The notes under the pieces: generated by a model | Databases searched by the model: none | Seen by the model: the letters and a program-made list of their open reading frames with translations, nothing else | What the model was told of the DNA's origin: nothing | In this document: piece after piece, positions 10,284-16,544 of the stretch | Position numbering within the stretch: the first letter of the stretch is position 1 | How the letters are laid out: each line of letters opens with the position of its first letter | Assembly: GCF_012273515.2 (NCBI RefSeq) | Contig: NZ_CP050975.2 | Span: 6,696,001 to 6,760,000, forward strand | Length of the DNA: 64,000 nt | Direction: 5' to 3' | DNA from: Streptomyces sp. RPA4-2 | GTDB lineage: Bacteria; Actinomycetota; Actinomycetes; Streptomycetales; Streptomycetaceae | Position numbers and translations under genes: made by a program

Positions 10284-10964
10284 TCACCTGCGGGTCGCCC
10301 AGACGTACCGATGCTCCGGGCGGCCCGCGTCGCCGTACCTGAGGGTCAGCCGGGCCCTTCCCGCGCGCTCCAGGAGCTTCAAATAGCGCTGGGCGGTCTG
10401 CCGGCTCAGTCCGGTCTCCTCGGCGACCTCCTGGGCCGACAGCGGCCCTTCGGCGTTCACCAGGGCACGGCGCACGAGCTCGGCCGTCGTGGGGGAGTGC
10501 CCGTTGGGCAGGGGCGGCTCGGCAGTCGTCGACAAGGCGCCGAAGATGCGGTCCACCTGGGCCTGTTCCGCCTCTCCGCCGGCGTCGAGGGTACGGCGCA
10601 GAGCCGCGTACGCCTCCAGTTTGGCGCGCAGGCCCGCGAAGGCGAACGGCTTGACCAGGTACTGCAGAGCGCCCTGCCGCATGGCCGCCCGCACGGTCGA
10701 GATGTCGCGGGCGGCCGTCACCATGATGACGTCGGTCTGGTGACCGCGCCGCCGCATCTCCTGGACGACCGCGAGGCCCGTCTCGTCGGGCAGGTAGTGG
10801 TCCAGCAGGACCAGGTCCAGGTTCGGCAGCGTCTCCATGAGCCGGATCGCCTCCGTGGCGCTGTGCGCCTCTCCCGCGACCCGGAACCCGGGCACCTTCG
10901 TGACGTAGGCGGCGTTGACCCGGGCGACCCGGGTGTCGTCGTCCACGACCAGCACCTCGATCAC
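10284..10964 (-). CDS. CitB/DcuR-type response regulator, copy 2
   Basis: A 226-residue response regulator with receiver domain (VVDDD at 6-10, Asp55 in LVLLDHYLPDETG, VTAAR, LVKPF) and a C-terminal winged helix-turn-helix (LSAQEVAEETGLSRQTAQRY). The GTG start at 10964 overlaps the kinase stop (GTGA) and has GGAGGGG just upstream inside the kinase gene, so it is cotranslated with and presumably phosphorylated by that kinase. It matches copy 1 (6368-7060) over its whole length, including the end (GRPEHRY). The likely target is the importer at 7222-10187, towards which it is transcribed. Confidence 0.93.
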   Translation of the reverse strand: MIEVLVVDDDTRVARVNAAYVTKVPGFRVAGEAHSATEAIRLMETLPNLDLVLLDHYLPDETGLAVVQEMRRRGHQTDVIMVTAARDISTVRAAMRQGALQYLVKPFAFAGLRAKLEAYAALRRTLDAGGEAEQAQVDRIFGALSTTAEPPLPNGHSPTTAELVRRALVNAEGPLSAQEVAEETGLSRQTAQRYLKLLERAGRARLTLRYGDAGRPEHRYVWATRR

Positions 10965-12628
10965 CGCGACCCCTCCTCGGCGGCCGTGGGCGCGCTGGGT
11001 TCCGCCGCCAGGTCCGCCTCCGTGAGCGCCTCCGGCAGGACGACCGTGAACTCCGCGCCCCCGCCGCTCGCCTCGGCCACCTCCGCGCTGCCGCCCTGCC
11101 GCTCGGCGAACCGGCTCACCAGGGAGAGACCGATCCCGCGCTTGCCGTGCGCCGGCGGCTTCTTGGTGGTCCACCCGTCCGTGAAGATCAGCTCCCGCCG
11201 CTCCGCCGGGATGCCCGGCCCGGTGTCCCGCACGCGCAGCACGGCCGTACGCCCCTGGACCCGCAATTCGACCTCCACGCGCGCGTGCGGCGTACCGGCC
11301 ACGGCGTCGAGCGCGTTGTCGACGAGGTTCCCGACGACGGTGACCAGTCCGCGCGGGTCGAGCAGCCGGTCGGGCAGCAGCGTCCCGTCCGAGATCCACA
11401 GGGCCACCCCGCGCTCGGCCGCGACGGTGGCCTTCCCGACCAACAGGGCGGCGAGCAGCGGATCGTGGACCTTCTCGGTGACCTGTTCCGCGGTGATCCG
11501 ATGGTCGCCGACCACCTCGCCGACGAACTCCACGGCGTCGTCGTACATCTCCAGTTCGAGCAGTCCCAGAAGCGTGTGCATCCGGTTGGCGTGCTCGTGG
11601 TCCTGGGCCCGCAGAGCGTCGATCAGTCCGTGCGTGGAGTCGAGTTCACGGCTGAGCTGCTCCAGTTCGGTGCGGTCGCGCAGGGTGGCCACGGCGCCGC
11701 CGTCGTCGGTCGGCATCCGGTTGGCGACCAGGACGCGCTGACCACGCACGGTCAGCAGATCCGTGCCGGTGACCCGTCCGGCCAGCACGTCGGTGGTACG
11801 GCCGGGACCGAGCACGTCGTCGAGCGGACCGCCGATGGCCGCCGCGTCGAGTCCGAGCAGCCGCTGGGCCTCGTCGTTGAGGAGGCGTACCCGGCCGGTC
11901 CGGTCCAGGGCGACGACTCCCTCCCGGATGCCGTGCAACATCGCCTCGCGTTCCGCGAGCAGCGCCGAGATGTCGGAGAAGGCCAGGTCACGGGTCTGCC
12001 GCTGGACCCGGCGGGAGAGCAGATAGGCGGCGAACGCACCGACGGCCAGGGCTCCGCCCGCGTAGGCGAAGAGGCCCGGGATGGCGTGGATCAGCCGGTT
12101 GCGCACACTGTCGTACTTGATGCCGACCGAGACCGCGCCGACGATGTGTCCATGGAGGCGCAGCGGCACCTTGCCGCGCGCCGAGCGCCCCAGTGTGCCG
12201 CTGTCGATCTGCATGACGTCCTTGCCGGCGAGGGCCCGGCGGGGGTCGGTGGAGACGACTTGGCCGATCTGGGTGACGTCCCTGTGCGACCAGCGCACGC
12301 CGTTCGTGTTCATCACCACCACGTACTCGGCCCCGCTGGCCCGGCGGATCCGCTCGGCGGCAGTCTGCACGGGCCCGTTCACGGACGGCAGCGACGTCTG
12401 CAGGTCCTCGGCGATGCGCGGCTGGGCCGCCGTGGTCTGCGCGATCGCGAGCGCGCGGCGCATGGCCTGGTCGTCGAGCTGAGCGCTGAGCGGGGCGAGG
12501 AACAGCCCGGTTGCGAGGACGGCGACTCCGGCGGCGATCGCCACCTGCATCAGCAGCACCTGCGAGAACATCCGCCGCGGCAGACGGAGGTGCAAGCGTC
12601 GTGCACGGGGAGTGGAGCTCATGCACAT
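10961..12628 (-). CDS. CitA/DcuS-type sensor histidine kinase
   Basis: A 555-residue kinase. Helix 1 lies at about 24-47, an extracellular sensor domain of about 130 residues follows (sCache/PAS-like, with SGAEYVVVMNTNGVRWSH), then helix 2 at about 185-205. A cytoplasmic PAS domain comes next (EGVVALDRTGRVRLLNDEAQ). The SpoOB-type phospho-acceptor helix holds His in AQDHEHANRMHTLLG. The HATPase_c domain has NLVDNALDA and DTGPGIP with GIGLSLV. The extracellular domain of this class binds citrate, C4-dicarboxylates or related acids. Start codons at 12628 and 12622 are both possible; neither has a strong ribosome site. A disordered Ala/Glu/Pro tail ends the protein. Confidence 0.92.
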   Translation of the reverse strand: MCMSSTPRARRLHLRLPRRMFSQVLLMQVAIAAGVAVLATGLFLAPLSAQLDDQAMRRALAIAQTTAAQPRIAEDLQTSLPSVNGPVQTAAERIRRASGAEYVVVMNTNGVRWSHRDVTQIGQVVSTDPRRALAGKDVMQIDSGTLGRSARGKVPLRLHGHIVGAVSVGIKYDSVRNRLIHAIPGLFAYAGGALAVGAFAAYLLSRRVQRQTRDLAFSDISALLAEREAMLHGIREGVVALDRTGRVRLLNDEAQRLLGLDAAAIGGPLDDVLGPGRTTDVLAGRVTGTDLLTVRGQRVLVANRMPTDDGGAVATLRDRTELEQLSRELDSTHGLIDALRAQDHEHANRMHTLLGLLELEMYDDAVEFVGEVVGDHRITAEQVTEKVHDPLLAALLVGKATVAAERGVALWISDGTLLPDRLLDPRGLVTVVGNLVDNALDAVAGTPHARVEVELRVQGRTAVLRVRDTGPGIPAERRELIFTDGWTTKKPPAHGKRGIGLSLVSRFAERQGGSAEVAEASGGGAEFTVVLPEALTEADLAAEPSAPTAAEEGSR

Positions 12629-13878: not shown

Positions 13879-15147
13879 TCAGGGGGCGCACTCAGGGAGC
13901 GGCTGTGGTGGCCGCGCTCCCACGTACTGGCCACTCGGACGCATGCGCAGCGGCCGTTCCCCGTACTCCTCCAGGGTGTGGGCGATCCACCCCGCAGTGC
14001 GGGCGACGGCGAAGACCGTCTCCGCGGCGGAGGCGGACATGCCGGAGGAGACCGTGAACACGGCCAGCGCGAGATCGACGTTGGCGTGCAGCGGGGTGTG
14101 GCGGGCGGTGGTGGTCACGATGTCCCGCGCCGCCGCCAGGGCCGGTGCCGCTCCGGGTACCTCCTCCAGGAGGGCGAACAGGGCACGCGCGCGTGGGTCC
14201 TCTCCGGGGTAGAGCCGGTGGCCGAGACCGGGGACGCGACGTCCGGCGCGCAGTTCGTCGGCGACGACCGGCGCCGCGGTGCCCTGGTCCAGCACGTCGA
14301 GGAGCATCCGGTGGGCCAGGCCGCCCGCGGCGCCGTGCAGGGGCCCTTCGAGGACGCCCAGGCCCGCGGAGACGGCGGCGTACGGGTGCGCGCGGGCCGA
14401 CGCGGCGACCCGTACCGCGAGCGTCGAGGCGGCCAGGTCGTGGTCGACGAGCAGACCGAGTGCCGTGTCCAGGACCCGCAGTGACGCACCGTCAGGCGTC
14501 CGGCCGGTGAGGCGCGGCCACAGACGGTGGGCCAGGGGGCCCTCGTCGCGGTGGTCGTGCCGCTTCGGCGGGAGGGCGGCGACGAGGGTGGGGATGAGGG
14601 TGCGCGCGCTGCCGAGGACGGCACTCTCCGACAGGTCGAAGCGCAGTGGGTCGGCGGCCGAGGCGGCGATCGCGGCGACGCGCAGCCGGTCCGTCGGGCC
14701 GCTGTGGTCGGGCAGCGCGTCGACGGCCCGGCGGGCGGCGGCGACGGTCGCCTCCGGAGCGGTGAACGTGATGCCCGGGCGCAGTTGTCCGGTCCACAGC
14801 CACTCGGCGATCTCTTCGTAGGAGTGGCGCGCGGCGAGTTCCGTCGCGTCGACTCCGCGGTAGTAGTACCGGTCCTCGTCGATCAACGTGATGCGGGTGC
14901 GGACGGACAGCTCGCCGCCCGCGCTCGGACTCCCGCTGGAATCGCGCCTGTTGCGTCGAGCGAGCGTCTCCACCTCCTCGGCGTCGAAGGTGCTGCCCCG
15001 GCCGCCGGGGTCGCGCCGGCTGCTGAGCTGACCGCGGCTCACGTACGCGTACACGGTCTCGGCCTTCACGCCGAGCAGGTCGGCGGTCTCCCTGGTGCTG
15101 AGCCGCCGGCCCGCGTGCGCCTGCGTTCCCGTTTCCTGATCCCTCAT
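13879..15147 (-). CDS. Citrate synthase with N-terminal helix-turn-helix domain
   Basis: A 422-residue fusion. Residues about 15-60 form a MerR/excisionase-like DNA-binding domain (LSTRETADLLGVKAETVYAY, then VSRGQLSSRRDP). From about 80 on it is a citrate synthase: catalytic His in EGPLHGAAGG, His in GLGHRLYPGEDPRAR and Asp in LHANVDLALAV are all present, so an active enzyme is possible. ATG 15147 is used; a GTG at 15156 would add three residues. The divergent partner at 15246 is a second citrate synthase, and the 98-bp gap holds a perfect palindrome at 15174-15192. Self-regulation by the fused domain is an attractive inference. 2-Methylcitrate synthase is an alternative activity. Confidence 0.88.
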   Translation of the reverse strand: MRDQETGTQAHAGRRLSTRETADLLGVKAETVYAYVSRGQLSSRRDPGGRGSTFDAEEVETLARRNRRDSSGSPSAGGELSVRTRITLIDEDRYYYRGVDATELAARHSYEEIAEWLWTGQLRPGITFTAPEATVAAARRAVDALPDHSGPTDRLRVAAIAASAADPLRFDLSESAVLGSARTLIPTLVAALPPKRHDHRDEGPLAHRLWPRLTGRTPDGASLRVLDTALGLLVDHDLAASTLAVRVAASARAHPYAAVSAGLGVLEGPLHGAAGGLAHRMLLDVLDQGTAAPVVADELRAGRRVPGLGHRLYPGEDPRARALFALLEEVPGAAPALAAARDIVTTTARHTPLHANVDLALAVFTVSSGMSASAAETVFAVARTAGWIAHTLEEYGERPLRMRPSGQYVGARPPQPLPECAP

Positions 15148-15173
15148 GGGCGACACCGTATCCGTGGATCGTC

Positions 15174-15192
15174 ATATTGATCCAATCAATAT
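15174..15192. promoter_or_regulatory. Perfect palindrome between divergent citrate synthase genes
   Basis: ATATTGAT, a 3-base spacer (CCA) and ATCAATAT form a perfect 8+8 inverted repeat in an unusually AT-rich patch between the two start codons. A direct repeat follows: TCGAGTCAAG at 15202-15211 and TCGAATCAAG at 15221-15230, 19 bp apart. This is a likely operator for one or both genes. Confidence 0.75.
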
Positions 15193-15245
15193 TGACAGAG
15201 ATCGAGTCAAGCATGGACAGTCGAATCAAGTTCAGGGAGGAACGC

Positions 15246-16544
15246 ATGCCGAACAACCGGGCCGCCACCGCCACCGCCAGCACCACCGCGAAAGCCCCCG
15301 CCACCGCGACAACCCCTGCCGTCGCGACAGCCCCCGCCACCGCGACACCCGCTGCCGTCGCGACAGCCCCCGCCCCTGTCGACATACCGCGAGGACTCGC
15401 GGGCGTCGTCGTCACCGAGACCGCGCTGGGTGACGTCAGGGGGCTGGAGGGCTTCTACCACTACCGCCAGTACTCGGCCGTCGAACTCGCGCGGACCCGC
15501 GGGTTCGAGGACGTCTGGCACCTTCTGGTCCACGGTGAACTGCCGGACGCGGCCCACGGTGCCGCCTTCGCCGCGCGGACCGCGGCGCTGCGCCGGCTCC
15601 CGGACGAGGTGCGCGCGGCGCTGCCCGCGATCGCGGCGGCGACCGGCCCCGCCGGACCGCTCGCGGGCCTGCGGACCGCGTTGTCGCTGCTCGGGGCGGC
15701 GTCGGGATTCCGACCGCTGTACGACATCGACGCGGACCGGCGCCAGGCGGACACGCTCGCCGCGTGCGCGGCCGTGCCGACGCTGCTCACCGCGCTTTAC
15801 CGGCTGGGGCGGGGCCTGGAGCCGGTGGAGCCGCGCGAGGACCTCCCGTACGCCGCGAACTACCTGTACATGCTCACGGGCGCGGAGCCGGACGCGGAGC
15901 GGGCGCGGGCGGTCGAGCAGTACTTGATCTCCACCATTGACCACGGATTCAACGCGTCGACGTTCACGGCGCGGGTGATCGCGTCGACGGGTGCGGACGT
16001 GGCGGCTTGTCTGGTGGGCGCCGTGGGGGCGCTGTCGGGGCCGCTGCACGGTGGCGCGCCGAGCCGTGCCCTGGACACGCTCGACGCGATCGGCACCGCC
16101 GACCGTATCGACCCGTGGATCCGCGCACGGGTCCTCGCGGGTGAGCGCATCATGGGCTTCGGTCACGCCGTCTACCGCACCGAGGACCCGCGCTCCCGGA
16201 TGCTCCGCGACATCGCCCAGGGGTTCGGCGGCTCCCTGGTCGGCTTCGCCGTCGAGGTCGAACACCGGGTGGAAGGGATCCTGGCCGAACTCAAGCCGGG
16301 CCGCGAACTCCACACCAACGTCGAGTTCTACGCCGGTGTGGTCATGGAACTGTGCGGCCTCCCGCGCGAGATGTTCACCCCCACCTTCGCGGCGGCCCGG
16401 GTCGTCGGCTGGAGCGCCAACATCCTGGAACAGGCGCAGGATTCGAAGATCATCCGTCCGGCCGCGCGGTATGTGGGGCCGGTGCCGCCGGTGCCTGTCC
16501 CTCCGGCGTCGGCGCCGCGGGCCGAGGCGCCGACGGTTCGCTGA
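15246..16544 (+). CDS. Citrate synthase (CitA-like) with low-complexity N-terminus
   Basis: A 432-residue citrate or methylcitrate synthase. The first 45 residues are an Ala/Thr/Pro-rich repeat (units like ATAPATAT and AVATAPA) with no homology expected, and the enzyme begins near DIPRGLAGVVV. Catalytic histidines lie in SGPLHGGAPS and GFGHAVYRTEDPRS. The third catalytic position reads HTNVEFYAG, with Glu where most citrate synthases have Asp; I recall the same NVEF pattern in mycobacterial CitA. ATG 15246 has AGGGAGG five bases upstream. It is divergent from the HTH-citrate synthase and probably controlled by the shared palindrome. Confidence 0.9.
   Translation: MPNNRAATATASTTAKAPATATTPAVATAPATATPAAVATAPAPVDIPRGLAGVVVTETALGDVRGLEGFYHYRQYSAVELARTRGFEDVWHLLVHGELPDAAHGAAFAARTAALRRLPDEVRAALPAIAAATGPAGPLAGLRTALSLLGAASGFRPLYDIDADRRQADTLAACAAVPTLLTALYRLGRGLEPVEPREDLPYAANYLYMLTGAEPDAERARAVEQYLISTIDHGFNASTFTARVIASTGADVAACLVGAVGALSGPLHGGAPSRALDTLDAIGTADRIDPWIRARVLAGERIMGFGHAVYRTEDPRSRMLRDIAQGFGGSLVGFAVEVEHRVEGILAELKPGRELHTNVEFYAGVVMELCGLPREMFTPTFAAARVVGWSANILEQAQDSKIIRPAARYVGPVPPVPVPPASAPRAEAPTVR

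Follow-up and report, generated by a model that had tools for sequence, protein, structure and literature searches.

A citrate synthase fused to a DNA-binding domain is encoded in the 64,000-nucleotide stretch of the Streptomyces sp. RPA4-2 chromosome that we analysed (the window), and comparison of its locus among genomes suggests that it is likely a one-component regulator. Its helix-turn-helix (HTH) domain, of the HTH_17 type, would bind DNA, its citrate synthase portion would serve as the ligand sensor, and at this locus it would mainly control a second, divergently transcribed citrate synthase. The gap between the two genes contains a candidate operator that recurs beside such fusions far outside the genus. 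With somewhat less assurance, we favor a broader interpretation, in which the fusions form an ancient cross-phylum family of transcription factors that sense a metabolite through the citrate synthase fold and have inherited a single operator code, TTGAT-N3..7-ATCAA-NN-TTGAC, while the controlled enzyme was repeatedly swapped. These swaps would include the replacement of an Si-type citrate synthase by a non-homologous LeuA-type enzyme, named citrate (Re)-synthase in some sources, in one actinobacterial clade. The strength of the case would lie in the survival of the element across phyla and partner changes; related genomes are not independent events.

The locus and the candidate operator

The window belongs to a 9.86-Mb chromosome with five PF00285 matches. 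The second synthase, which begins with an ATG, matched this profile with 363.9 bits. The two genes diverge across a gap of 98 bp (15148-15245), in agreement with an earlier sequence-only reading of the window. Their counterparts in S. coelicolor are SCO5831 and SCO5832, named citA3 and citA4 (PMC12323332). The features of the locus are as follows.

13879..15147, reverse strand: HTH-citrate synthase fusion gene (read from 15147 to 13879), 422 aa, counterpart of SCO5831/citA3 (gene order, profile search)
14947..15102, reverse strand: HTH_17 DNA-binding domain, residues 16-67 (profile search; almost no variation in the helix and recognition region among 182 fusions)
15155..15160, reverse strand: TACGGT, putative -10 of the fusion gene (located 9-10 nt upstream of the start codon at 83 close loci; promoter role proposed)
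15174..15192, no strand: perfect palindrome, spanning H1, H2 and the first base of H3 (repeat search)
15177..15196, forward strand: candidate operator TTGAT-CCA-ATCAA-TA-TTGAC, with half-sites H1 (15177-15181), H2 (15185-15189) and H3 (15192-15196) (cross-genome conservation)
15192..15197, forward strand: TTGACA, putative -35 of the divergent synthase (fixed spacing across loci)
15206..15210, forward strand: fourth half-site GTCAA (H4), inside the -35/-10 spacer, mainly in closer relatives (locus comparison)
15214..15229, reverse strand: counterpart of the site that MtrA binds between SCO5831 and SCO5832, including the second direct-repeat copy (PMC12323332, Table 1, section 10; position from sequence)
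15216..15221, forward strand: GACAGT, putative -10 (A2, T6) of the divergent synthase, 18 bp past TTGACA
15234..15240, forward strand: AGGGAGG, putative ribosome-binding site of the second synthase (read from sequence)
15246..16544, forward strand: second citrate synthase (432 aa), scoring over the cut-off of the PRK12350 subfamily, with Glu in the position of the catalytic Asp; putative main target

The palindrome and direct repeat noted in the sequence-only reading were both recovered. The palindrome, ATATTGAT-CCA-ATCAATAT, is a perfect inverted repeat with 8-bp arms, and the direct repeat is 9 nt long with 89% identity, one copy (15221-15229) falling inside the MtrA-site homologue. The region of the palindrome proved to be conserved, but the 19-bp palindrome itself was not the conserved unit. 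That unit is larger, TTGAT-N3-ATCAA-YR-TTGAC, and the outer ATA of the palindrome is only a majority feature. The exact element, TTGATNNNATCAAYRTTGAC, has one site in the genome, with none at one or two mismatches, seven at three and none for the reversed control. H4 was present in 101 of 115 close, 10 of 13 intermediate and 2 of 24 distant loci.

Conservation within Streptomyces

We sampled 150 genomes of the genus, of which 97 carried the fusion (called at E 1e-40) and the complementary 53 did not. In a whole-genome scan, the exact element occurred in 78 of the 150 genomes with one site each, all of them among the 97 fusion-bearing genomes and always at the fusion locus. The same scan found it in none of the 53 genomes without the fusion, and the reversed pattern occurred in none of the 150. 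The co-occurrence of fusion and exact element gave a Fisher p of 8.5e-25, without correction for shared ancestry.

Loci were read directly for 95 of the 97 genomes, G102 and G112 being without a read locus. The exact form was present in 77, and in 76 of these it lay no more than 149 bp from the start of the fusion match; in L012 the distance was 1478 bp, with a synthase copy in between. The remaining 18 loci comprised nine with the relaxed full form, three with the core only and six with neither by pattern. Two extra bases separated H2 from H3 in one of the six (L067) and GA replaced YR in two (L118 and L119); the others were L034, L036 and L076. Among 80 named Streptomyces records, partly from the same strains, the element was found within 400 bp of the fusion in 76, the exceptions being L215, L228, L253 and L257. 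At about position 12270 of L228 (S. eurythermus), a TTGAT/ATCAA-rich stretch lies 5' of a DcuS-type kinase, and the synthase was not found there.

Conservation beyond the genus

The addition of draws from the family, class and phylum gave 183 fusions with an HTH start, after omission of L041, L158, L162, L192 and L198 (no HTH-start match) and of nine loci with the second synthase only (L053-L061). The stretch searched began 450 bp upstream of each match and ended 60 bp inside it. Conservation of the element across genomes is far above that in Markov-resampled sequence: the core, RTCAAYRTTGAY, was found upstream of 164 of the 183 fusions versus 1 of 3660 resamplings, and the relaxed full form at 152 versus none of 3660. 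The controls, for this set and for the plasmid set below, were first-order Markov resamplings rather than exact shuffles, and the core pattern has the H2-H3 distance set at 2, so variants may be hidden. Fusions of less than 50% identity retained the core in 26 of 30 cases.

The same fusion architecture was found in Pseudomonadota and Deinococcota by a plasmid search, at about 31-45% identity. The matched plasmid records numbered 254 and 78, with overlap, and we examined 20 (L321-L340, including one from Nonomuraea), which were picked for genus spread. The full form (last half-site TTG[AC]Y) was present in 18, the core in 18 and both in 17, compared with 0 and 5 of 4000 resamplings for the full form and the core, respectively. 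The H1-H2 spacer in this set was mostly 7 and the dinucleotide mostly GA. The expectation from the sequence-only reading that the palindrome would be conserved together with the fusion was borne out in the genus and beyond the phylum.

Genomes were also scanned by pattern. A stricter pattern, which skips several fusions of that draw with relaxed forms, matched 12 of 198 phylum genomes (reversed control, 1 of 198), and nine of the matches were at fusions. In G226, the pattern-only scan found a site where no fusion matched at 1e-30, yet an HTH-bearing fusion adjoins it. The sites off fusions in G182 and G323 lie upstream of a cold-shock-like gene in genomes of 30% GC. The relaxed pattern matched 59 of 122 family genomes (reversed control, 2 of 122). 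In G374, there was no match at 1e-40, but the fusion is present, cut by the contig end. Family-scan sites away from fusions were treated as unrelated; they are two copies in a polyketide-synthase-like coding sequence in G363, a single site upstream of other genes in each of G354 and G365, and one in G371.

Two side observations came from these genomes. The related genomes G365 and G354 (L316/L317) have a different palindromic array, TTGATCAATATTGATCAACGTTGA, 5' of unrelated genes. In L341 (G164:C15:6475-6497), the third phylum-scan site off fusions, a full element lies 5' of an acyl-CoA-synthetase-like gene, with no fusion within the 5 kb read.

Several observations weigh against the interpretation of the fusion as a regulator acting through this element. 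No core was found by pattern at 19 of the 183 fusions: L034, L036 and L076, a single clade that lost the synthase, keep the HTH and lack the element; eight loci of one genus (L145-L151 and L195) have only a rearranged element; in L044 the element is 1.1 kb away from the fusion; and L012, L038, L045, L067, L118, L119 and L199 have near-variants of the core. The plasmid fusion of Paraburkholderia sprentiae has neither the full form nor the core. The H1-H2 spacing ranges from 2 to 9, mostly 3, 6 or 7, so one rigid dyad cannot account for all three half-sites. The relaxed pattern is imperfectly specific, as indicated by the reversed controls in the family and phylum genomes. All seven catalytic and substrate positions considered below are intact in 178 of 182 fusions, which leaves room for an enzymatic role. 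Finally, the neighboring enzyme gene would probably be controlled by repression, but activation is also possible.

Promoters and the likely target

H3 looks like the -35 box of the divergent gene, and this assignment is best supported in actinobacteria. After removal of near-identical gaps (124 to 90 close, 26 to 24 distant and 18 to 18 plasmid loci), an A2/T6 -10-like hexamer was found 18 bp past TTGACA in 79 of the 90 non-redundant loci of close relatives. In the distant actinobacterial set, it was found at a spacer of 17 in 12 of 24 loci and of 18 in 10 of 24, and the plasmid set gave a weaker signal (7 of 18 at spacer 17, 4 of 18 at spacer 18). The putative promoter of the divergent synthase in the window is TTGACA-N18-GACAGT; a generic sigma-70 scan found no promoter at the TTGACA site. 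The distance from the element to the putative -10 of the fusion ranged from 20 to 96 bp in 86 loci. The fixed spacing to the divergent promoter and the variable spacing to the -10 of the fusion imply that the main target is the neighboring gene.

These spacings also bear on the idea that the core ATCAA-NN-TTGAC is only a pair of back-to-back divergent -35 boxes, kept for promoter function. H3 does act like a -35 at a fixed distance from the -10. However, the spacing between H2 and the fusion's putative -10 is not fixed, H1 is conserved as well as the core, and the genus scan found the exact motif no more than once in any genome. The element is also lost where either gene is lost, though the remaining gene still requires a promoter. 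We regard this explanation as highly improbable.

Three natural experiments agree with the divergent gene as the target. In the L034/L036/L076 clade (support 100/81; 3 of 95 genus loci), the synthase and the element were lost while the fusion and its HTH remain, which is evidence against autoregulation as the main purpose of the element. In one genome, G027, the second synthase occurs without the fusion, and its upstream region retains the CATGGACAGTC -10/MtrA box and no element; the fusion and the element may have been lost in a single event. In G420 (L311/L312), the synthase was relocated by 20 kb with its own copy of the element, and a fragment was left behind. The metabolic switch acting on its own promoter, as first proposed from the window, is thus supported only in part. 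Operator conservation is in its favor, but the variable distance and the L034/L036/L076 losses speak against the own promoter as main target. Autoregulation by the fusion, if it occurs, would be secondary to control of the neighbor.

For the fusion as a regulator of its neighbor, the following mechanism can be proposed. The citrate synthase dimer would present two HTH domains that bind the element. Binding would probably block RNA polymerase at the divergent promoter, because H3 resembles its -35. The proposed ligand is oxaloacetate, an acyl-CoA or a related 2-oxoacid; once bound, it would shift the protein to another conformation that lets go of the DNA or holds it more tightly. The citrate synthase part of the sensor may still act as an enzyme. 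MtrA would provide a second, independent input at the neighboring site.

Neighboring genes and other candidate binders

Downstream of the fusion, a Suc_Fer-like gene is followed by a DcuS-type kinase and a regulator (profile search), and the same arrangement is found in S. coelicolor (PMC9739823). The DcuS/MalK-like sensor kinase (sCache_3_2, PAS) and the response regulator occupy 10284-12628, and 68 of the 80 named Streptomyces loci have the kinase close to the fusion.

The element might instead be bound by MtrA/GlnR or by this two-component system, with the HTH of the synthase being vestigial. In S. coelicolor, a probe of the gap is bound by MtrA, and in the absence of MtrA both citA3 and citA4 reach higher levels during late growth (PMC12323332). 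The two-component system has been suggested as the repressor of SCO5831 (PMC9739823), and the kinase matches DcuS/MalK-type models, below their cut-offs. However, the MtrA site homologue falls outside the element, and where distant loci retain the element, their consensus does not show the MtrA box. The 53 fusion-less genomes lack the exact element, though MtrA would be expected there. A tblastn search (1e-15) of 19 stretches from distant loci (12-18 kb, L291-L309) recovered neither the kinase nor the regulator, while 14 of the 19 have the full element; the two-component system was rejected as the binder on this ground. The kinase is also absent from 12 of the 80 named Streptomyces loci, and the element is kept in 11 of these 12 (L257, at a contig end, is without both; L285 is also cut). 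Taken together, these observations make binding by another regulator improbable.

Divergent partner genes

In the divergent synthase, Glu replaces the catalytic Asp in 162 of 163 copies, while the fusion retains Asp. The structure 2c6x (CITRATE SYNTHASE 1), which we take to be Bacillus subtilis CitA, also has Glu at this position. Twelve distant actinobacterial fusions have no divergent synthase, and 10 of them carry the full element (degenerate in L038 and L199), which indicates that the element follows the fusion and not one partner. A LeuA/homocitrate-synthase-like gene is divergent in L038, L039, L160, L161 and L196, which formed one clade in 100% of 200 bootstrap trees. At least two of the 120 LeuA-like homologues listed are named citrate (Re)-synthase (P0186, P0194), and others homocitrate synthase or LeuA family. 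The divergent gene belongs to DUF2332 in L181, L182, L186, L189 and L190; in L199 a weaker match to DUF2332 lies farther on, and in L047 the gene has no family assignment.

The plasmid set showed a similar variety of partners. The divergent gene was a citrate synthase in three records (Ensifer, Chelatococcus, Agrobacterium), a LeuA-type gene in two (Deinococcus, annotated as pyruvate carboxyltransferase, and Nonomuraea), a CoA-transferase in four (two Azospirillum, Comamonas antarctica and Ewingella) and a DUF2332 gene in one (Pseudoroseomonas). Two (Thioclava, Caballeronia) have a divergent MFS transporter gene with a 2-hydroxyacid dehydrogenase gene after it, and two Comamonadaceae have a divergent 2-hydroxyacid dehydrogenase. 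P. sprentiae has no divergent gene beside the fusion, and no divergent gene was assigned in five records that carry no gene annotation (L322, L331, L334, L339, L340).

Citrate synthases are dimers, and the fusion and the second synthase are mostly gained or lost together, the second synthase being found at 1e-100 in only 1 of the 53 fusion-less genus genomes. The fusion might therefore hetero-dimerise with the second synthase, so that enzyme abundance would feed back on its own operator. In many lineages, however, the same element stands beside an unrelated divergent gene, and we consider such feedback quite improbable.

The fusion protein

Profile searches identified HTH_17 (PF12728) at residues 16-67 of the fusion (E 4e-7, 30.6 bits against a cut-off of 27) and Citrate_synt (PF00285) at residues 80-404 (E 1.2e-62, 212.5 bits against 27). 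The MerR and MerR_1 profiles remained under their cut-offs (24 versus 28.2 and 21.5 versus 21.6 bits), as did the BldC model NF033787 (19.4 versus 77 bits) and the excise model (23.5 bits), and the Pfam search of the fusion reported no MerR effector domain. None of the 25 NCBIfam models listed for the fusion reached its cut-off, including those for citrate/2-methylcitrate synthase (TIGR01800, 159.2 versus 421.3 bits). Alignment showed that the fusion has the catalytic residues H271, H310 and D358 together with H236, R319, R383 and R403, whose catalytic and substrate roles we assume by homology. The fusion with its three catalytic residues, as seen in the sequence-only reading, was thus confirmed, and of its label 'MerR/excisionase-like' the second half is retained: because the MerR models stayed under their cut-offs, 'HTH_17/excisionase-like' is the better description.

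Among 182 aligned fusions (L202, with 257 aa read, was excluded), H236, H271, R319, D358 and R383 were present in all, H310 in 179 and R403 in 181. The HTH positions A22, L25, G26, T31, Y33, Y35, S37, R38 and G39 were nearly invariant. According to precomputed domains, PF12728 and PF00285 occur together in 119 of 120 homologues among the matches listed, P0076 having only PF00285. In the fusions of G019, G137, G149, G345, G402, G440, G486 and G603, about 20 to 140 extra residues are inserted near query position 200, which splits the matches.

This conservation raises the question of a bifunctional trigger enzyme, an active citrate or 2-methylcitrate synthase with an additional PutA-like repressor function, switched by substrate supply. 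This explanation overlaps with the one-component regulator and differs in that catalysis would matter. The near-complete retention of H271, D358 and H310 is in its favor, and the SCO5831 protein has been detected in proteomics (PMC9739823, PMC8981147). On the other hand, the three fusions that lost H310 (L153, L155, L178) each retain the candidate operator, so the conserved DNA element is independent of full catalysis. Three others, from the proteobacteria Thioclava, Caballeronia and Paraburkholderia PGU19, have Gln at H236, and the divergent genes of other lineages are often not synthases. In Caulobacter, CitB complements a gltA mutant of E. coli, while CitC does not (CitB/CitC = CCNA_03757/03758; PMC7083601), a comparison that would hold if CitC carries the HTH. 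We consider the trigger enzyme possible but somewhat doubtful.

Significance and comparison with known systems

If the fusion is a regulator, many proteins named 'citrate synthase' would be gene regulators, and tricarboxylic acid cycle models of Streptomyces, rhizobia and others would count sensors as enzymes. A core metabolic enzyme would have turned into a transcription factor, its binding site surviving while the target was exchanged. The candidate operator and ligand class would also allow a direct test of acyl-CoA or oxaloacetate sensing. Among the papers listed by the literature searches, mostly outside subscription journals, none was seen to report the fusion as a regulator; PMC10704036 cites a 2014 study on the citrate synthases of Saccharopolyspora erythraea.

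The fusion shares its HTH_17 domain with MerR, BldC and excisionase proteins, but it scored below the cut-offs of these families and the remainder is a whole citrate synthase. MerR operators place a dyad within a -35/-10 spacer of 19-20 bp, whereas the spacer here is 17-18 bp and the putative -35 comes only after H1 and H2. The control of citA3 and citA4 by MtrA involves the same intergenic region, with both genes bound and mostly repressed (PMC12323332). It differs in that the MtrA site is separate and adjacent, and SCO5831 is described as a putative citrate synthase, with no mention of an HTH, in the accessible text of that paper. In Caulobacter, the citrate synthase CitA likewise has a regulatory function that does not depend on catalysis, but a fused DNA-binding domain is not mentioned for CitA in the accessible text (PMC7083601).

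The likeness to PutA includes the architecture. PutA (proline utilization A), a trifunctional autogenous repressor, is a catabolic enzyme whose N-terminus carries a DNA-binding domain and which represses metabolic genes (PMC5293562), and the fusion similarly joins a DNA-binding domain to an enzyme domain and has a candidate operator conserved beside its gene. The parts are different, however: PutA combines a ribbon-helix-helix with a flavoenzyme, while the fusion combines HTH_17 with citrate synthase and has a neighbor that varies by lineage.

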